Of a stretch of 55,573 nt of DNA, positions 6,529 to 14,886 are shown one piece after another. The stretch is from Coleofasciculus sp. LEGE 07092 (GTDB taxonomy: Bacteria; Cyanobacteriota; Cyanobacteriia; Cyanobacteriales; Coleofasciculaceae). The notes under the pieces are model-generated. The model was not told the DNA's origin. It searched no databases and was given only the letters and a program-made list of their open reading frames with translations. Each line of letters begins with the position of its first letter. The stretch's first letter is position 1. The DNA is taken from assembly GCF_015207375.1 (NCBI RefSeq), contig NZ_JADEWY010000027.1, forward strand, positions 1-55,573, read 5' to 3'. Both the position numbers and the translations under genes were made by a program.

Positions 6529-7662
6529 TTAGATGTGCAATGCCCGAATTCGCTTGATTCCTAGAAAAGTCGCATGATAAGGAACCTGCCATAGGTGATC
6601 TAAACCCCAGACATATTGCAGATATCGGGTAAATTCTAAAAGTTTGAATCTTGAATTAACATTTTTGACGGCTCTTAAATATTGAAAATATCTAGGGGTT
6701 AAAGAGCCGAACATGGGTAAAGATTTAGTTGTTAAAACTTTATACTCACGCTGTTCAAATCCTGAAATATTGATGGTTTCAAGCGTTTCTAAAGTAGAAA
6801 TTGGAATGGGAGCGTCGAGGCATTCTTGTAACTTAGTAAGCAGGATTTTTAAAGGCAGAACTAATTGATAAGTATGAGCCATACGAATCAACCGATGCCA
6901 ATCAATCTCAGCCGAAGATGAGTTGAGAATTGTCATCGCGTCTGTTAGCCAATAAATTGGTAAGACTGGATTCCAGGGGTAGACCTGTACGCACAGAGCC
7001 AATAAGTGGTCAGTGGGGTTTAAAACATAGGTTGATACGTCCCTAACTTGAGTTAATAGTGAATCCTGCCAAAACTCATTATCAGCGTCATCTTGAAAAC
7101 AACTCCAGAAAATATGCCAGTGGAGGTTGATAACTTGTCCCTCTGGGTTTTCAAATCTGAGGATATGAGAGACAGAGGTAAGATTTTCTGGTAGTTTGCC
7201 TTTAGGCTGCCAATCGAGTTGCTCTAATAAACGGATTGCTTTTAAAGCATCTGTTGTCGGAACCAGAATGTCAAACTCTGATAAATAACGGAGCCCTTTT
7301 TCTGAATAATACTGTGAAGCTAACGCTACCGCTTTGAGTAGCATTGTTTTTAGTCCTGCCTCCTGAAAGGACTTAAGAATAACGCCTAGTTTAGAAAATA
7401 GAAGTTGATTTTCACACCATTGGCGTCGGTAAACGCCTTTTAGCCTGACCAGATGAGGGTCGTCTACCTGATGAGCGGATAAATTCTGATACAGCAAAGG
7501 AAATAAATGAAATGATTCGGCATCGTGATCTTCTATATCAACGACTTCTTTCCACTGCTGCCACGCTTGGAGGGCTTTTTGTCCCTGGAGGAGAGAGGCT
7601 TGCAAAAGCAGTTGGTGTTCTGAAGTTAACTCAATCTTGTTTAAACTCTGATAAATATTCAT
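6529..7662 (-). CDS. NTP_transf_5-like nucleotidyltransferase with altered active site
   Basis: A 377-residue protein resembling the uncharacterised NTP_transf_5 family (Pol-beta-like fold) found with HPr-kinase-like and PqqD proteins. The family core is recognisable as LLKAVALASQYY (about 108-119) followed by GLRYLSEFDILV (about 123-134). Compared with its neighbour at 7829, KG has become KA (residues 110-111) and DID has become EFD (129-131), so activity may be changed or lost. It is divergent from the 7829 gene across 166 bp, which must contain both promoters. Assignment to a biosynthetic cluster is by context. Confidence 0.7.
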   Translation of the reverse strand: MNIYQSLNKIELTSEHQLLLQASLLQGQKALQAWQQWKEVVDIEDHDAESFHLFPLLYQNLSAHQVDDPHLVRLKGVYRRQWCENQLLFSKLGVILKSFQEAGLKTMLLKAVALASQYYSEKGLRYLSEFDILVPTTDALKAIRLLEQLDWQPKGKLPENLTSVSHILRFENPEGQVINLHWHIFWSCFQDDADNEFWQDSLLTQVRDVSTYVLNPTDHLLALCVQVYPWNPVLPIYWLTDAMTILNSSSAEIDWHRLIRMAHTYQLVLPLKILLTKLQECLDAPIPISTLETLETINISGFEQREYKVLTTKSLPMFGSLTPRYFQYLRAVKNVNSRFKLLEFTRYLQYVWGLDHLWQVPYHATFLGIKRIRALHI

Positions 7663-7828
7663 GAAAGCTTCATTGAAATTACCGTGAACAAAGGGAGAGA
7701 AAGGCTACAATGCAATTGAGCTATATCTTTGTCGGGAAAAAATCACCTATCGGTGTGTAGAGATGGATTCAAAGCCTCTACTATGTTGATGACTCCATAA
7801 GATTCAATCAGTATCAAGAACTGCATAA

Positions 7829-9070
7829 ATGACTCAACTCCTAGCCGAGCGGAAAATTCTAACCAAACCTTCACAAGTCGCCAAACCTCCAGAAATTGAG
7901 TTGTTGCTCTGTTGTAGCCGAACTTCTATCGATTCGGCAAGAGCCGAGCGGATCGAGAGCTTACTCCGACAAGAGATCGACTGGGACTACCTCACTAATA
8001 CAGCCGCTCGACATGGAGTCATGCCGCTGCTTTATCAGAGTTTGAATGGGACTTGTCCTGGAGCAGTGCCAGAGGCAATTCTGAATCAGCTTAAAAAAGA
8101 TTTCCGTACTAACGCGATACGCAATCTGCACCTGAGTAAGGAATTACTAAAACTTCTAGATTTGTTTGCGGCTCACAATATCCCGGTTCTCTGTTTCAAG
8201 GGACCCGTTTTAGCCGCCTCTATTTACGGTGATTTGTCTCTGCGACAGTTTAGTGATATCGATATCTTGGTAAGCGAGTCCAATATTCTGGAAGCACGGG
8301 ATTTACTTGTTTCCCAAAATGCAAAGATGCGGTTTCATGTGATTGAACCAACTGAGGGAGAAGAGGAAGCATTTATCCAATCTCGCACTGTGCACCAGTT
8401 TGTGAGGGAAGCTGCCTATGAATTTGAATACAACCAGGGTAAAGTCATCGTAGAGTTGCACTGGGAAGTGATTCCCAAATACTTCTGTTTTCCCCTGAAG
8501 GTTAAGCATTTGCGAGAACACCTAGAGTCTGTCTCGATTCTAGATAGGACTGTACCGAATCTTGCACCGGAGGATTCATTGCTGTTGCTGTGCGGACATG
8601 GGACTAAGGATTGTTGGGATAAATTGGCACGGGTTTGTGACATAGCTGAACTGTTGCGGAGCTATCCCCAATTAGACTGGGGAAGGGTACTCAAACAAGC
8701 GAGACAACGGGGAGGGGAACGCATTCTCCTGCACGGACTGCTTTTAGCTCACAATTTATTGGGAGCAACGCTACCGGAACAGGTTTGGCAACGGATTCAG
8801 TGTGATCCTAAAATTGCAGCGATCGCTTCCCAGGCACAGGAGTGGTTATTTTGTCCCATTGATGAGCGTCCTGGACGTGTGGAACAGTTCTTTTTCCATC
8901 TCAGAACAAAGGAACGCCTGCGGGATAAAGTAGGGTTCGCTTTGAGTCTGGCGCTGACTCCCACGCCTTCAGACTGGGCATTGTTCCCTCGGTCTGCATT
9001 CCCTTCAGTCTACTACTATCTGCTCCGACCCCTACGGATGCTAGTGAATTGGGGATTGAAAAAATTCTAG
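7829..9070 (+). CDS. NTP_transf_5-type nucleotidyltransferase
   Basis: A 413-residue protein with the full family signature: CFKGPVLAASIYGD (about 122-135) and RQFSDIDILV (about 139-148), where Asp143 and Asp145 are the expected metal ligands of a Pol-beta-type nucleotidyltransferase. Members occur beside PqqD and HPr-kinase-like genes, including some lasso-peptide clusters where they modify the peptide product. It is convergent with the SMP-30 gene, with stop codons only 5 bp apart, so no intrinsic terminator fits between them. The start at 7829 is preceded by AAGAACTGCATAA without a strong ribosome-binding site. Confidence 0.8.
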   Translation: MTQLLAERKILTKPSQVAKPPEIELLLCCSRTSIDSARAERIESLLRQEIDWDYLTNTAARHGVMPLLYQSLNGTCPGAVPEAILNQLKKDFRTNAIRNLHLSKELLKLLDLFAAHNIPVLCFKGPVLAASIYGDLSLRQFSDIDILVSESNILEARDLLVSQNAKMRFHVIEPTEGEEEAFIQSRTVHQFVREAAYEFEYNQGKVIVELHWEVIPKYFCFPLKVKHLREHLESVSILDRTVPNLAPEDSLLLLCGHGTKDCWDKLARVCDIAELLRSYPQLDWGRVLKQARQRGGERILLHGLLLAHNLLGATLPEQVWQRIQCDPKIAAIASQAQEWLFCPIDERPGRVEQFFFHLRTKERLRDKVGFALSLALTPTPSDWALFPRSAFPSVYYYLLRPLRMLVNWGLKKF

Positions 9071-9075
9071 GTTGT

Positions 9076-10011
9076 CTAAGGCATTTTGATACCGGGAATA
9101 TTGACTCGAATCTTATACAGTGAAGTACGAGCAGTGATATAAAGACTCTGCCAATCTTCATCTCCCCAGGCACAATTGGCGGGTTCCTCCGGAGTGACAA
9201 TGGTGCCTAAATGCTTCCCTTGGGAATCGAGTACCCACACACCACCTGCACCCGTGCAGTAGAGGTGTCCTTCTTGGTCAATCTTCATTCCGTCAGGTAC
9301 ACCAGGGGTTTTGATATTCATATCATAAAAGATGCGACCATTAGCCAGAGTGCCATCGGCTTGAACATCAAATGCTCGGACATGACGGCGTTGAGAATCG
9401 TCGATATAAAGGGTTGTTTCATCCGATGAAAAGGCTAAACCATTGGGTTTGTCAAAGTCATTGGCAACAACGGTTAGTTCCCTTCCATTCGGCGAAATCC
9501 GATAAACTCCTTGAATCGATTGTTCCTGCTGTTCGGGTTGGATACCATAGGGGGGGTCGGTGAAGTAGATAGCACCGTTGCTTTTCACAACGACATCATT
9601 GGGACTATTAAGCTTTTTCCCATGGAAGCGATCGGCTAAAACGGTGATTGAGCCGTCTTTTTCCGTGCGGGTAACTCGGCGATTGTGATGTTCACAGGCA
9701 ATGAGCCGTCCTTGTTTGTCCCGCGTTAAACCGTTAGAGTTGCCACTGGGTTCTCTAAAGATTGTGACTTGACCGTTGAGAGTCAGCTTATAGATTTTAT
9801 TGGCGGGAATGTCGCTGAAGAGGAGACACTGTTCTTCAGCCAACCAAAGCGGACCTTCTGTAAATTGAAATCCTGTAGCGACGCGCTTAACGGTTGCACT
9901 TTTAGGAAAAAGCGTTTTAAACACTGGTACTTTTTCTTCTAAGTGACCGATGGCTAAGGAAAATCTTATTTGTTCTATCTTTTGATTGAGCCAACTCCGA
10001 ATGCTAATCAT
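9076..10011 (-). CDS. SMP-30/gluconolactonase family hydrolase
   Basis: A 311-residue six-bladed beta-propeller of the SMP-30/gluconolaconase/LRE-like family. The calcium-ligand motifs are visible: FTEGPLW (Glu), NSPNDVVV (Asn), KPNGLAF and YIDDSQ (Asp). Family enzymes open sugar lactones. The first 35 residues lie outside the propeller. It lies 26 bp after the SDR gene on the same strand and is probably the last gene of the PqqD-HprK-glycosyltransferase cluster. The substrate cannot be read from sequence. Confidence 0.85.
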   Translation of the reverse strand: MISIRSWLNQKIEQIRFSLAIGHLEEKVPVFKTLFPKSATVKRVATGFQFTEGPLWLAEEQCLLFSDIPANKIYKLTLNGQVTIFREPSGNSNGLTRDKQGRLIACEHHNRRVTRTEKDGSITVLADRFHGKKLNSPNDVVVKSNGAIYFTDPPYGIQPEQQEQSIQGVYRISPNGRELTVVANDFDKPNGLAFSSDETTLYIDDSQRRHVRAFDVQADGTLANGRIFYDMNIKTPGVPDGMKIDQEGHLYCTGAGGVWVLDSQGKHLGTIVTPEEPANCAWGDEDWQSLYITARTSLYKIRVNIPGIKMP

Positions 10012-10037
10012 TTACTTTGAATTTTAATATTCCCAAA

Positions 10038-10922
10038 TCAAGACAATTGAGGGGGGTGTTGCGCAACGCGATAGTTATACAGTGACAATCCTCCATCAAT
10101 TCTCAACAGGGTTCCGGTGGTAAATTTTGAAAAATAGTCTGAAGCGAGATAAACAGCCGCTCTACCAATATAACGAGGATTGATTGAACTTCCGTACAGA
10201 GGAGCGTATTTATGATAGAGAGGATTTCCCTGTTCGTCTTCTATTACCCAACCCGGAGCAATACCGTTAACTCTGATTTGGTGGGAAGATAAGTCTATCG
10301 CTAGCTCTTTGATAATCATGTCTAATGCTGCCTTTGAAGAACTGTAACTCGGCCAACGGACAACCGTATTTTGGTGCATAGAAGTCATAAATATAATTGA
10401 GCCATGAGTCGAATTATCGATCATCATTTGAGCGATAAGTTTGGTAAGATAGATCGAACCGAATACATTGGTGTTGAATGTTTTGTGCCATTCAGATAAT
10501 TCAAGATTGTTTAGACCTATTTTTGTAAACTGAATGCCAACATTATTGACTAAGACATCAATGTAAATATTATCCTGTACGAGTAAGCTATATAGGAAAT
10601 CAGTATCTTCAGTATTAGATATATCTGCAACAAAACCTTTAGACTGAACTGGATAGATTGTTAATTCCTGTTCTAATTTTTCGCATCGTTCGAGAACGAT
10701 ATCAGTAAAAAAGACATTAGCTTCTTGTTTTGCCATTTCCAGGGCAATGCTTTTACCGATATTCTGTCCAGCGCCAGTGATGAGAACATTCTTTCCGGCT
10801 AAAAGCTGATTGTCTAGAACTTGGGAAGGTTCTGGAGCTTGGGACTGAATGACTACCTTGGGAGTTAGGTTGGGATTCAAGAAGGAATGTAAGGCAGCTT
10901 TTAGTCGAGTTTTTAAGCTCAT
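10038..10922 (-). CDS. SDR family NAD(P)-dependent oxidoreductase
   Basis: A 294-residue classical short-chain dehydrogenase. The Rossmann glycine motif TGAGQNIG is near residue 50, NNVG follows the fourth strand, and the catalytic pair is in YSSSKAA (Tyr-x-x-x-Lys), with the RVNGIAPGW loop behind it. About 40 residues precede the Rossmann fold, longer than usual. It lies 94 bp after the third glycosyltransferase and 26 bp before the SMP-30 gene. SDR plus lactonase next to glycosyltransferases suggests oxidation of a sugar or polyol followed by lactone opening, but that is inference. Confidence 0.9.
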   Translation of the reverse strand: MSLKTRLKAALHSFLNPNLTPKVVIQSQAPEPSQVLDNQLLAGKNVLITGAGQNIGKSIALEMAKQEANVFFTDIVLERCEKLEQELTIYPVQSKGFVADISNTEDTDFLYSLLVQDNIYIDVLVNNVGIQFTKIGLNNLELSEWHKTFNTNVFGSIYLTKLIAQMMIDNSTHGSIIFMTSMHQNTVVRWPSYSSSKAALDMIIKELAIDLSSHQIRVNGIAPGWVIEDEQGNPLYHKYAPLYGSSINPRYIGRAAVYLASDYFSKFTTGTLLRIDGGLSLYNYRVAQHPPQLS

Positions 10923-11016
10923 AGTTATGTTTTAGCTTTCTCCTGAAAAGGTTCTAGGATAAGTTTATCCCTAACTACGAGCGAAATCCACTTCAGACGC
11001 CTTTCAAGATCCTAAA

Positions 11017-11715
11017 TTAACTCAGTTGACCTATAGCGCGGCGTCGGTCGAGAGAAGCTTTAAGGATTCGGATATATTCCGTTTTATCTTGGCGTTGATT
11101 AACCCCTTTATTGGTTTTGTGTAGTCGTCGTTTTGCTACTAAGTTGGGTAACGTCATCATCTGAATTCCTAACTCAGTGGCACGTACATACCAACTAGGA
11201 AATTCTGCTAATTTCCAGTGGGTTTCAAATAAACCAACCCGGAAGAAAGATTCCCGTTTAATTACTATAGCAGAGGGTATATGTCCTGGCATTAAATCCG
11301 GCGGACAATATATCTTTGCCTTTATACTTTCATCCAATTCGGGACTGTGAAACTGTTGAACCTGTCCAGAGACAATATCTAACTCAGGATGGCTGGCAAA
11401 TGCTGCCATCTGACGCTCTAATTTATCTGGCATCCAGAGGTCATCGGCATCCAGAAATGCCAAAAAGTTACCTTGGGCTAATTCTATCCCGTGATTGCGA
11501 GCAGCCGCCGTACCACTATTGGTTTGGTAACAGTAGTGTACTGCTTCCCCAAAGCGTTTGGCTACGTCTGCACTGTTATCGGTTGAACCATCATCGATTA
11601 CAATAATTTCAACGGGTTGATAGGTTTGTGCTACTACACTTTCGATGGCTTGGGCTAGATAGCGATCGCTGTTATAAAATGGAATAATCACACTGACTAG
11701 GAGAGTCGTTTCCAT
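11017..11715 (-). CDS. family 2 glycosyltransferase (third of three)
   Basis: A 232-residue GT-A fold glycosyltransferase. Signatures are VSVIIPFYNSDRYL at the N terminus, EIIVIDDGSTDNS for nucleotide-sugar binding, the central FLDADDLW (DXD-type metal site) and a C-terminal RRLHKTN. There is no membrane segment, so it is probably cytosolic or peripheral. It begins 5 bp after the middle glycosyltransferase. It is paralogous to both upstream genes, so the three arose by tandem duplication or diverged for different acceptors. Donor and acceptor are unknown. Confidence 0.9.
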   Translation of the reverse strand: METTLLVSVIIPFYNSDRYLAQAIESVVAQTYQPVEIIVIDDGSTDNSADVAKRFGEAVHYCYQTNSGTAAARNHGIELAQGNFLAFLDADDLWMPDKLERQMAAFASHPELDIVSGQVQQFHSPELDESIKAKIYCPPDLMPGHIPSAIVIKRESFFRVGLFETHWKLAEFPSWYVRATELGIQMMTLPNLVAKRRLHKTNKGVNQRQDKTEYIRILKASLDRRRAIGQLS

Positions 11716-11720
11716 TCTGA

Positions 11721-12413
11721 TTACTTTGTAGTTGTCTGAGTGCGTTGACGTTTAATGGATTGTCTTAGGACTTTCAGCAAGTTCTGATTATTGTTCGTCG
11801 AATTTAAGGAAAGATTGCTTGTATGGATGCGCTTACATAACAACACTTGAGCCACTACCGCCATTGGAATGCCAGCATCTTTAGCACGGGCAAACCAATC
11901 AACATCTTCAGCCGTAGTTAAGTCATGATTAAACGTGCCAATCACTTCAAATAACGGCTTGCGTACCACCAATGTTCCAGGAATAGGCGCAACCGCAGCT
12001 TTCTCTAAAAGTTCCTTGCGGAACCCCGCAGGCATTTCGCATCCGGGTTCTAGAAACGACTTCATCTTGGCAATTGTGTACTGAATATCTGGATGACTGA
12101 TGAGATAATTAACTTGAACTGTTAGTTTATCAGTTGTCCAAAAGTCATCATGGTCTAAAAAGGCAATCAATTCTCCCTTAGCCGCCTCAATACCAGAATT
12201 ATATGCCGCTGCACTGCCTTGACCTTTAGCGCGAATATATCGCACCTGTGGATAAGATTTAGCAATCAGTTCGGTGTTATCCGTGGAGCGGTCATCAACT
12301 ATAATAATTTCATATAGGCTATAGGTTTGAGAGAGAACGCTTTCAATGGCATTTGCCAAATAGGGTTCTCCATTGTTGACAGGGATAATCACACTAACTA
12401 GAGGACTATTCAT
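11721..12413 (-). CDS. family 2 glycosyltransferase (second of three)
   Basis: A 230-residue GT2 protein when started at the ATG ending at 12413, which gives the MNSPLVSVIIP start seen in its paralogues and leaves 4 bp after the upstream stop; an in-frame upstream ATG would add 12 charged residues and overlap that gene. Motifs are SVIIPVNNGEPYL, EIIIVDDRSTDN (Arg in place of the usual Gly), FLDHDDFW and KRIHTSNLS. It shares the operon with its two paralogues. Confidence 0.9.
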   Translation of the reverse strand: MNSPLVSVIIPVNNGEPYLANAIESVLSQTYSLYEIIIVDDRSTDNTELIAKSYPQVRYIRAKGQGSAAAYNSGIEAAKGELIAFLDHDDFWTTDKLTVQVNYLISHPDIQYTIAKMKSFLEPGCEMPAGFRKELLEKAAVAPIPGTLVVRKPLFEVIGTFNHDLTTAEDVDWFARAKDAGIPMAVVAQVLLCKRIHTSNLSLNSTNNNQNLLKVLRQSIKRQRTQTTTK

Positions 12414-12417
12414 CGCT

Positions 12418-13188
12418 TTAAACCTTATAGCTCTCCGGCGGCATACCAATATACTCAGAAATACTGAGCATACTTGGGGAAAGAGTAGCGGCTAACTTGC
12501 CATTCTTACGGCAGCGATCAAGATGCTTCTTAAAAATTCTGACAAAACCAACTTCAACTAGGTTTTTACCCGATGTCATGTTGGCTTGGTGCTTGCGATA
12601 ATAAAGGTTCACTTGGTCAAGGACAACCTTTGACACTCCATTTTCCCAAGCCCGGAAAAACCAATCAACATCCTCACCGTAACTCATGGTTTCATCAAAT
12701 AGACCGACTTTATCAAACACCAATTTGCGGTAAATGGCACTGCCTATATTAATATAGGAGTAAGGGGAATGGACTTCTTTAAATATCGCCTTACCCTCCC
12801 TTGTCCAAGTGGATAACTGCATCTGTTGGATCGAACCTTGTACGATTTCTACAGACGGATGTTCGGCTAAGTAAGTAAGCTGAAGTTTCAGTTTGTCATT
12901 TGACCAGAGATCGTCAGTGTCTAAAAAGGCAATAACATTTCCTGAAGCTAGCGTGATTCCTAGATTACGTGCGACTGCGGGTCCTTTGTTAGACTGATAA
13001 ACGTAGCGAATCTCATCTTTGAATTGAGCCGCAATATCTGCCGTACCATCCGTTGAACCGTCATCAACCACAATAATTTCTAACGGATAATGACCTTGCT
13101 GTTGCACATTTTCAATGGCTTCAGCTAAAAATTTTTCTCCGTTGTAAACTGGAATAATGACGCTGACAAAAAATTGGTTGAGTTCCAT
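12418..13188 (-). CDS. family 2 glycosyltransferase (first of three)
   Basis: A 256-residue GT2 protein with SVIIPVYNGEKFL, EIIVVDDGSTDGT, FLDTDDLW and a C-terminal YYRKHQANMTSG. It starts 3 bp after the stop codon of the HPr-kinase-like gene, so translation is probably coupled. This tight join is the best evidence that kinase and glycosyltransferases work together. A typical role is adding a sugar to a surface glycan or to a peptide or lipid acceptor; the sequence does not decide. Confidence 0.9.
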   Translation of the reverse strand: MELNQFFVSVIIPVYNGEKFLAEAIENVQQQGHYPLEIIVVDDGSTDGTADIAAQFKDEIRYVYQSNKGPAVARNLGITLASGNVIAFLDTDDLWSNDKLKLQLTYLAEHPSVEIVQGSIQQMQLSTWTREGKAIFKEVHSPYSYINIGSAIYRKLVFDKVGLFDETMSYGEDVDWFFRAWENGVSKVVLDQVNLYYRKHQANMTSGKNLVEVGFVRIFKKHLDRCRKNGKLAATLSPSMLSISEYIGMPPESYKV

Positions 13189-13191
13189 GGG

Positions 13192-14295
13192 CTAGCCTTG
13201 AGATAGGAGTTTTAAAATCACGTCAGGAATTTGTCCGATATCCGTGCCAAGATTGAGAGAATAACACGGAATCTGCTTAACAATTCTCATCATCATTTGA
13301 CACGCCTCTTTCCCTGCTCCTGGCAATTGTGCGATCGTGCTGGGAACTAATGCTGCTAATCCTACTGTTGAGGAAGTTGGTGTCAATGAAGTATCAGTTT
13401 TGCCAGTAATGCGGGGAATTAAAAGAGCCTTTAGGGGAAAACTGGATATGATTTTTTCAGGAAAATGCTCGTACAAAAAATAAAGTGCTTTTTCGGTATC
13501 CAAGCGATCGCTATTACTAATCACGGACTTGAGAAACGGCAACCGCTCCACATCATCTGACTTCTTTTTCCCCGTGTTGTAGATACTCAATGCGGTCGGA
13601 CTAGGCTCAGACGCCAGCAGCGTATAATCATCGCTCGCATAAAACAGCTCAGAATTCAAGCAGCACAACGCTGTTGTTGATTTACCCGAACCTCCCCTAC
13701 CCACTAGCAATACTCCACCACTAGGAAGTCCCACCGCACCCGCGTGTACCATTTGGATACCTCGCTGTCTCATCCAAACGTGAAAAATGATCCGCAGTGG
13801 CGAACCTGTTTCCCAGTAAGGAATCTGTTCGCTGGTATTCACCCAGTAAACGCCCAAATTGCGATCGCGATCTAAAAGACTTAACGCACTCACTCCCCAT
13901 TGAAACGTCGTATGAATCCGCTCATCATTAAATCCATAAATTTCCCCGCGCTTGAGATGATGCTGTCCTTGCCAAGGAGGTGGCGGCATTTTAGTGTTTG
14001 TAGACTGACTATCCCACAAACAAATAGTCAGCGCCGGCTCGGGTACGGGTTCTATCGCTAAATGAGCCAAAGCAGGAGTTAGATAGGGTACTAATGCTGA
14101 ACCTGCAAAGCGCAAACGAATAACATACCCACCGATGCGATAAAAACAATCTACCGACCCGCCAACGGCATTTTCAGCATTTTCATAAGCGTCATAAATC
14201 TCGTTAAAAAAAGCCAACGGTTCTTTAGCAACCGTTTTGGTTAAGACACTAGACTGCACGGATTGGTCTGTACTCACTGAATTTCTTTTACCCAA
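13192..14295 (-). CDS. HPr kinase-like ATPase (HprK-related)
   Basis: A 367-residue protein whose C-terminal half (from about 180) has the HprK-type kinase core: VHAGAVG with His184, the Walker A loop GRGGSGKST at 199-207, and SDDY at 221-224 for the acidic catalytic pair. The N-terminal half does not resemble the HPr kinase regulatory domain. No HPr protein is encoded nearby. Relatives next to PqqD and NTP_transf_5 genes include the lasso-peptide kinases that phosphorylate the peptide product. Here it lies 132 bp after the PqqD gene and is coupled to three glycosyltransferases. The phosphate acceptor is unknown. Confidence 0.85.
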   Translation of the reverse strand: MGKRNSVSTDQSVQSSVLTKTVAKEPLAFFNEIYDAYENAENAVGGSVDCFYRIGGYVIRLRFAGSALVPYLTPALAHLAIEPVPEPALTICLWDSQSTNTKMPPPPWQGQHHLKRGEIYGFNDERIHTTFQWGVSALSLLDRDRNLGVYWVNTSEQIPYWETGSPLRIIFHVWMRQRGIQMVHAGAVGLPSGGVLLVGRGGSGKSTTALCCLNSELFYASDDYTLLASEPSPTALSIYNTGKKKSDDVERLPFLKSVISNSDRLDTEKALYFLYEHFPEKIISSFPLKALLIPRITGKTDTSLTPTSSTVGLAALVPSTIAQLPGAGKEACQMMMRIVKQIPCYSLNLGTDIGQIPDVILKLLSQG

Positions 14296-14427
14296 AAAAC
14301 GCCAGATTGTTTAGGGAATTCCCAAAGATATCCATCGCTCAGGACGAGTTACCCTAGATTATCGGTTGTACTATTTTTTTGAATGATAACTGCTCCGGCA
14401 TTGGCTATTTTTTGATTTAAAACTTTC

Positions 14428-14886
14428 TTAGAATACCTCTGCTTTGGCATTGGGCCAGCCCATTTCATCCACATCATGGATGGGGTCTAAGGCTAACAAT
14501 TCTTCCATATCCGTATATTTTCCCAACGCAGGCGGCTCAAAGTTAGGCTTTTCTCCACTGGTATTTATAGTTGGTGCGTTGGATTTTGCTGTACCGTTCG
14601 AGGAATGAACGTTGTCAACGATAATAAGTTCTTCTTGCTGTAATTGCTCAATTAGAGTAGTCACCCCTTTTTCAATATCTTCGCGACTTCCTTCATAACG
14701 TTCAACCATTTCTTTAATAATCTTGTCTCTGGCAAGCCCTCGTTCTATCCCATTCCAAATATCAGCACCAGAGTTTAATAAACTATAATAATCTCCTTTT
14801 TCGAGATGCACAATGACCACTTCACCATCAATGGTTTCCTGGACAACAGTGGGACTGTTAATTCTAAACGTTGTGGACTGATTCAT
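14428..14886 (-). CDS. PqqD-domain protein with leader-like C-terminal tail
   Basis: A 152-residue protein. Residues about 5-92 form a PqqD/RRE-type winged helix (VVIVHLEKGDYYSLLNSGADIW, then helical segments and EELIIVD). PqqD domains bind the leader peptides of RiPP precursors. A Ser/Thr/Asn-rich linker (93-113) leads to a tail with F116-x-x-P119-x-L121, the pattern used by lasso-peptide leaders to bind their RRE, followed by ALDPIHDVDEMGWP (132-145) and ten further residues. The tail may be a substrate or an internal ligand carried in cis. It is the first gene of the cluster. The peptide-system role is inference. Confidence 0.85.
   Translation of the reverse strand: MNQSTTFRINSPTVVQETIDGEVVIVHLEKGDYYSLLNSGADIWNGIERGLARDKIIKEMVERYEGSREDIEKGVTTLIEQLQQEELIIVDNVHSSNGTAKSNAPTINTSGEKPNFEPPALGKYTDMEELLALDPIHDVDEMGWPNAKAEVF

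Follow-up and report, generated by a model that had tools for sequence, protein, structure and literature searches.

RiPP recognition elements (RREs; RiPP, ribosomally synthesized and post-translationally modified peptide) are known as adaptors for the leader of a separate precursor, and a locus of Coleofasciculus sp. LEGE 07092 raises the question of what such a domain does when a leader-like ligand and a near-invariant peptide follow it on its own chain. The locus lies in a stretch of 55,573 nucleotides (assembly GCF_015207375.1, contig NZ_JADEWY010000027.1, positions 1 to 55,573), hereafter the window, in which a PqqD/RRE protein of 152 amino acids (14428 to 14886, minus strand) is followed by genes for an HprK-like kinase and glycosyltransferases. 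Proteins of this kind form a widespread RRE family whose tail is conserved across bacterial phyla and accompanies the kinase. The answer that we favour, with a confidence that stops a little short of even, is that the RRE serves as a self-liganded scaffold, its tail providing the docking site for a dedicated kinase within an assembly of glycan loci that transfers phosphate and sugars.

In the mechanism proposed here, the PqqD domain would hold its own leader-like strand, F116 to Y124, in its peptide groove, much as the RREs of lasso peptides and of linear polyphosphorylated peptides (LPP) bind a separate precursor, and this self-docking would display the DPIH[DE]V-x(3,4)-GWP segment, which in turn would dock the dedicated HprK-type kinase. 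The kinase, GT2 glycosyltransferases, and NTP_transf_5 proteins would then yield a phosphorylated, glycosylated product like those of surface-glycan loci. The tail would remain attached as a built-in docking or presenting peptide, with Asp134 situated where precursors of the LPP system have their phosphorylated Ser.

Conservation and Distribution of the Tail

The protein consists of an RRE (PqqD) domain (residues 22-88; 14623 to 14823, minus strand, as are all its parts), a variable linker (residues 93-113; 14548 to 14610), and a tail (residues 114-152). The initial annotation of this DNA, made from its letters and predicted reading frames, had pointed out a leader-like motif and a further stretch in that tail, and F116, P119, and L121, together with ALDPIHDVDEMGWP at residues 132-145, are indeed found at the positions claimed. 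Two parts of the tail are distinguished below, namely the leader-like segment F116 to Y124 (FxxPxLxxY; 14515 to 14541), predicted as a strand, and the conserved segment D134 to P145, DPIHDVDEMGWP (14452 to 14487), predicted to be left free of the RRE.

When the full-length protein was used as query, a strong full-length homologue (E ≤ 4.2e-43) was found in 13 of 97 genomes, its own included, and the tail was present in all 13. Eighteen other genomes gave weak matches only; the tail was absent from all 16 PqqD open reading frames (ORFs) that were read, and genome G084 has a different tail. Mean pairwise identity among the 13 homologues is 0.25 in the linker, 0.56 in the RRE, 0.70 over residues 114-131, and 0.87 over residues 132-146, and tail columns are more conserved than RRE columns (p 7e-5). 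The expectation that the tail would prove better conserved than the linker was thus borne out, and the lack of conservation that had been named as grounds for abandoning it was not seen.

The genome_contigs collection, described as covering 84,980 species, was then scanned at the DNA level for DPIH[DE]V-x(3,4)-GWP alone, which returned at least 118 stretches. Fourteen of the 118 listed were DNA polymerase I genes, chance matches to the DNA pattern, and one more (L164) was dropped as it held no ORF of at least 50 amino acids with the motif; at least 103 ORFs are genuine and span at least 15 named phyla, with 6 unassigned among the matches listed. The consensus of the tail is FxxPxL..[YFH].D[ML]...LL..DPIH[DE]V-x(3,4)-GWP, in which DPIH[DE]V and GWP were set by the pattern, so that only the 13 homologues and the matches to a tail profile are unbiased on those residues. 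A profile of the RRE alone matches the region before the tail in 102 of the 103 listed ORFs, the lone exception (L090) being cut by a contig start that leaves 37 residues. In a tail-profile search of 386 genomes of the cyanobacterial phylum, the good matches all lie in long open frames (150-228 and 661 amino acids); the small genomes of family f47 have a diverged tail in which GW is kept and GWP is not. In a tree of RRE domains with the tail removed, one branch (support 100/97) splits 64 tail-bearing proteins, out of 116, from 15 tail-less ones, all cyanobacterial, over few columns. The observation of the tail is thereby confirmed, and it reaches wider than the initial annotation saw.

Two individual occurrences deserve record. 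In genome G330, a PqqD protein (L226:5198-5659) ends in the degenerate tail YEPPAFEVFRDMEQLLALDPPMPDAGEIPW, two other copies being present in the genome, and a metagenome bin labelled Klebsiella pneumoniae (L100), possibly a mislabelled environmental bin, carries the system. A plasmid search with one Mesorhizobium homologue gave no match.

An RRE with Its Own Ligand

The domain assignment holds, with PF05402 scoring 54.2 bits (E 1.9e-14) against a cut-off of 23.4, in agreement with the earlier domain call. The RRE matches the structure of TbiB1 (5v1v), solved with a lasso leader (Foldseek E 9.6e-6, Z 14.3), and VIA-align matched RREs and other winged-helix folds over residues 1-99, with no match covering the tail itself. 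The protein falls short of more specific models. The model for PqqD of pyrroloquinoline quinone (PQQ) biosynthesis, TIGR03859, reaches 15.3 bits (cut-off 46), and the lasso RRE models NF033536 and NF033530 reach 54.3 and 32.2 bits (cut-offs 80 and 70). The four proteins run against PADLOC as a possible defence system had no match.

In an AlphaFold2 prediction of the window protein, made together with 63 homologues, the pLDDT (predicted local distance difference test) is at least 96 over residues 11-90. Its mean is 68-69 over residues 91-110, 96 over 111-120, 82 over 121-130, where residues 121-124 form a strand, and near 60 over residues 131-152. Since the RRE contains the only other sheet, the leader strand is taken to pair with it. 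The proposal in the initial annotation of a leader-like tail that serves its own RRE as ligand accordingly gains support from the FxxPxL motif and from a strand predicted at high pLDDT.

A strand predicted next to its own RRE would equally suit an autoinhibitory lid, in which the tail fills the groove until a precursor encoded elsewhere displaces it, and some kinases of family f47 have an additional PqqD-like domain to which the leader could bind in trans. A docked strand would suffice for such a lid, yet it is the free DPIH..GWP part that is best conserved, and the listed loci show no recurring ORF that might encode a precursor; we consider a lid very improbable.

The leader-like segment also stands in a fixed register with the end of the tail. 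In 73 of 116 tails, the pattern [FYW]xxPx[LVIFMA] precedes the DPIH Asp by exactly 18 residues, against at most 2 in shuffles. The consensus of LPP precursors, YxxPxVLxHQxIxFETxxS, likewise has its last Ser 18 residues after the Tyr, and the phosphate is carried by core Ser3, with the precursor Tyr at -16, the same distance (PMC13381572); Asp134 therefore sits at the register of the phosphorylated Ser. No column of Ser, Thr, or Tyr is invariant among 109 non-redundant tails. Ser/Thr is most frequent at position -9 (62 of 109, as 44 T and 18 S, with 29 D), and position -10 holds 62 Y, 34 F, and 13 H.

The Kinase as Partner of the Tail

The kinase gene (13192 to 14295, minus strand) scores weakly as a single sequence, with 13.1 bits against 33.3 for Hpr_kinase_C and 21.2 against 200 for TIGR04355, while a profile built from 34 homologues finds structures of HprK (1jb1, E 1.9e-8). 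The HprK label rests on this profile because the best 50 Foldseek rows of a fold search are phosphoenolpyruvate carboxykinases (best E 3e-11). Residues H184, G202, G204, K205, and D223 are invariant in the 34 rows and D222 is Glu in some, so that the family has the HprK-type His, P-loop Lys, and Asp-Asp; lasso-peptide kinases carry the same His-Lys-Asp-Asp residues (PMC9266682).

Tail and kinase occur together with few exceptions. Among the 386 genomes, the 29 with a tail (E ≤ 8.7e-7) are the same as the 29 with the kinase (E ≤ 1.5e-34), both thresholds having been placed at visible gaps after the lists were seen and the kinase count resting on five scored candidates per genome; kinase matches weaker than the gap are present in other genomes. 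Copy numbers tend to follow, with two tails and two kinases in G213 and, in G330, three strong kinases beside three tails, one of them degenerate. Further tail genomes have the kinase in ten of ten cases (in G033 on a separate contig), as do 90 of the 103 listed loci. The other ground named for abandoning the idea, a tail without kinase neighbours, thus gave a nearly clean outcome: no kinase was seen within the DNA covered at 13 listed loci, of which L084, L118, L162, L171, and L176 have 2.3-5.4 kb of downstream DNA covered.

At 59 of the 90 listed loci with a kinase, no more than 60 bp separate the PqqD stop from the nearest kinase gene, which lies upstream of PqqD at 8, with starts assigned mechanically. 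NTP_transf_5 genes are found at 60 of the 103 loci, and GT2-type ORFs of one cluster at 62 (103 of the 104 ORFs in that cluster resemble the GT2 proteins of the window; another cluster, c2, looks like antisense ORFs and was set aside); the frequent order is PqqD, kinase, GT2s, NTP_transf_5. The association extends to natural fusions, the kinase being joined to GT2 in L096, L159, and L172, and PqqD, tail, and kinase forming a single frame of 649 amino acids in G330, where the tail is internal. Other arrangements of the kinase were noted in passing. In two f47 loci (L228:8615-10132 and L230:8039-9547), the PqqD profile also finds the C-terminal part of the kinase frame (E 1.1e-6 and 9.7e-9, respectively), the L228 frame having no Pfam PqqD match, and a second kinase copy of G033 (L224:7046-9571, contig C98) is an 842-amino-acid frame that adjoins another kinase and whose N-terminal part is GT2-like by eye.

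Co-divergence was measured on 80 loci with both proteins, using 13 positions of the free segment (nine before DPIH and four after) that are mostly not fixed by the search pattern. Divergence of the segment follows that of the kinase when the RRE is controlled for (partial r 0.50, p 0.001), but it does not follow that of the RRE when the kinase is controlled for (0.03, p 0.25). When the entire tail was used and NTP_transf_5 served as the control (n=43), the values are 0.46 for tail and kinase given NTP_transf_5 and 0.04 for tail and NTP_transf_5 given the kinase. These partial correlations, in which shared descent is not fully removed, point to the kinase as the partner of the tail end.

The same evidence can be read in another way, possible if unlikely, with the tail as a covalent acceptor arm: the kinase would phosphorylate Asp134 or His137, giving an acyl phosphate or a phosphohistidine, NTP_transf_5 and GT2 proteins would add sugars, and the RRE would behave like a carrier. 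We know of no precedent for phosphorylation of Asp or His by such RiPP-locus kinases, which counts against this reading. The pairing and co-divergence of kinase and tail, the place of Asp134 at the LPP phospho-Ser register, the conservation of the residues D, H, V, and W within the predicted free segment, the fusion of HprK, GT2, and PqqD in natural proteins, and the pseudomycoidin enzymes PsmK and PsmN, which add phosphate and then hexose to a peptide (PMC9266682), all agree with it; the known RiPP-locus members of this kinase type act on Ser, however, and LppK refuses Thr and Tyr (PMC13381572). A more elaborate version, which we rate as rather unlikely, would make the system a counterpart of carrier proteins, in which the RRE swings the near-invariant Asp134/His137 arm between kinase, NTP_transf_5 protein, and glycosyltransferases while a phosphoglycan grows on this arm, itself of ribosomal origin and never cleaved. 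Were this true, it would amount to a carrier-type system over many phyla and a new acceptor chemistry for the kinase fold. The addition of phosphate or sugars to the tail, which the initial annotation had put forward, is not supported so far, given the lack of an invariant Ser, Thr, or Tyr in the 109 tails, the internal tail of G330, and the lack of a recurring peptidase among the neighbours examined.

Several observations weigh against the docking account that we prefer. The docking of the leader segment on its own RRE is read from pLDDT and the secondary-structure line of the model, and the strict motif is absent from 42 of the 116 tails (the aromatic residue is in place in 81 and the Pro in 86). 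Ser or Thr at position -9 may be a lineage-specific phosphosite, and invariance without Ser or Thr could also mean an Asp or His acceptor. Distance correlations retain shared descent, and the longer kinase gives cleaner distances than the RRE, a concern that the NTP_transf_5 control answers in part. To these are added the narrow sampling of the RRE tree, the thresholds and five-candidate kinase count described above, the kinase-less listed loci, a second, weaker kinase match in G249 without a second tail, and the degenerate tail (E 1.2e-4) in one of the three G330 copies.

Searches for a Precursor, Protease, and Cyclase

The resemblance of the leader motif and register to LPP and lasso leaders would also suit a single chain of RRE and RiPP precursor, from which a protease would free a small modified peptide at the tail end in LPP-like fashion; exporters occur at some loci, and in G084 a precursor of a different, lasso-like kind is joined to an RRE. 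No peptidase family recurs, however, among the 25 commonest families of each of two neighbour scans (Pfam scans of 162 of 167 selected ORFs), and a lasso B2-like protease ORF is present at 1 of the 103 listed loci. Nor was a separate precursor seen: the interval that separates the PqqD and kinase genes of the window contains no ORF of at least 20 amino acids with a YxxP leader and Ser, and the 601 small intergenic ORFs of the listed loci contain no recurring leader-bearing peptide. Five of them fit a loose leader pattern and are mutually dissimilar; recurrent small-ORF groups cover few loci, those with a listed origin being Mesorhizobium, and have the appearance of intergenic DNA common to these loci. 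Since neither peptidase nor precursor is recurrent, the putative core is near-invariant across phyla, and the tail of G330 sits inside a PqqD-kinase protein, a released peptide is improbable.

The absent genes and the model scores given above rule out an ordinary lasso, PQQ, or LPP cluster, upholding the earlier statement that this is neither of the first two. Neither a B2-like leader peptidase nor an Asn-synthase-like cyclase is among the nine genes of the window that were scanned with Pfam (6529 to 14886). A SipW-like signal peptidase was found neither among these nine nor among the 25 commonest neighbour families, in scans not aimed at SipW. An MsbA-like exporter is likewise missing from the nine, and some related loci, such as L083, have one.

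Several further loci were noted. L099 has a transglutaminase-like ORF (lasso B2 type) and a second kinase near its tail protein, perhaps from an adjoining lasso cluster. Radical-SAM-like CxxxCxxC ORFs in similar surroundings (HCN-TC--CNHASP) stand beside the tail proteins of L094 (1638-2615) and L104 (1087-2049). An unrelated RRE-peptide fusion in G084 (L235:5226-5795, contig C61; also L017) joins PqqD to a lasso-like leader and a Gly-rich stretch (WTTPALASYGTMATLVHGSGGSG...), on a contig that also carries an Asn-synthase-like gene.

Organization of the Locus

The PqqD gene of the window is separated by 132 bp from the kinase gene, which is followed on the same strand by three GT2 glycosyltransferase genes at 12418 to 13188 (PF00535, E 7.3e-35), 11721 to 12449 (PF00535, E 2e-34), and 11017 to 11715 (PF00535, E 2.8e-37), a short-chain dehydrogenase/reductase (SDR) gene at 10038 to 10922 (PF00106, E 1.6e-41), and a gene for an SMP-30/gluconolactonase-like protein at 9076 to 10011 (PF08450, E 8.3e-58), all on the minus strand. 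This same-direction order agrees with the initial annotation, and the 3-5 bp gaps reported there from the kinase through the third glycosyltransferase (3, 4, and 5 bp) hold if the second GT2 gene begins, as is probable, at ATG 12413 rather than at the listed TTG 12449. Two NTP_transf_5 genes, at 7829 to 9070 on the plus strand (PF14907, E 3.4e-63) and 6529 to 7662 on the minus strand (PF14907, E 2.5e-32), lie just beyond 9076-14886 and had been overlooked.

The closest named match among those listed, Anabaena L112, has an operon of identical make-up. In 12 cyanobacterial contexts (16-20 kb, some cut), the kinase is present in 11, NTP_transf_5 in 11, GT2 in 12, SDR in 9, and SMP-30 in 10, the SMP-30 protein being rare in the wider set (2 of 103 listed loci). 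Other recurring neighbours are mainly glycosyltransferases, with some exporters and sulfotransferases, and ABC-2 type transporters adjoin the kinase in G033 and G197.

Comparison with Known Systems

The HPr-rel-A system (TIGR04352, TIGR04353), to which the initial annotation had linked the locus, shares a PqqD-like protein and an HprK-related kinase; the window proteins fall short of its models. The kinase scores 17.7 bits with TIGR04352 (cut-off 200), and the PqqD protein has no match to TIGR04353 at E ≤ 0.1, a model that weakly matches 6 of 64 tail proteins at E ≤ 0.001 (best 2.1e-5) and found nothing in the protein's own genome, yet matched none of 14 controls either, so that this negative does not speak for absence. 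The SynChlorMet cassette shares the PqqD-like/HprK-like pair, its models ScmD (TIGR04248) and ScmC (TIGR04249) matching weakly 14 of 64 PqqD proteins and 8 of 34 kinases. It includes radical SAM members, which this cluster does not have. Borosins resemble the present proteins in carrying a recognition and modifying protein and a peptide on one chain, but there the peptide is fused to a methyltransferase instead of an RRE, and no kinase is involved.

RRE-glycosyltransferase fusions are mentioned by RRE-Finder (PMC7470986) and a 2025 structure-based RRE survey (PMC12710340), and no mention of an RRE fused to its own ligand was found in the available text of either. The strings DPIHDV, DPIHEV, and LLLLDPIH were not found in the literature searched, from which most subscription papers and all preprints fall outside, and none of the publications listed there on PqqD with an HPr kinase, nucleotidyltransferase, or glycosyltransferase, or on fused precursors, describes the present system, as judged by titles and the beginnings of abstracts.

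The lasso peptides paeninodin and pseudomycoidin are made with an RRE, an HprK-like kinase, and an NTP transferase, phosphate and then hexose being placed on the peptide (PMC9266682), and this kinase and NTP transferase chemistry is common to both (PMC9266682; PMC7533575). In contrast to the present cluster, where neither is seen, they depend on a B2 leader peptidase together with a lasso cyclase, and it is the C-terminal Ser of a separate precursor that is modified (PMC9266682).

In its parts, LPP is the closest known system. It too combines an RRE, an HprK-like kinase, and an NTP transferase, without a macrolactam cyclase and in polysaccharide loci, and the spacing of 18 from its leader YxxPx[V/L] to the phosphorylated Ser equals that from FxxPxL to Asp134 (PMC13381572). 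It differs in having a separate precursor whose core varies, along with a signal peptidase of the SipW type and an exporter resembling MsbA, and in being described as restricted to Bacillota (PMC13381572), whereas the tail family covers at least 15 named phyla, has its ligand fused to the RRE, and ends in a near-invariant segment without Ser at the register. We place the system with the RRE/HprK/NTP-transferase kind, a carrier-like working being a possibility. Genome mining that assumes a separate, variable precursor is confronted here with an RRE family that breaks this assumption, and a 12-residue signature suffices to find the system across bacteria. The tail protein and its kinase offer a small two-protein setup in which to probe the roles of HprK-like kinases and NTP_transf_5 proteins in glycan loci, and together they may be the core of an undescribed phosphate- and sugar-adding machine.

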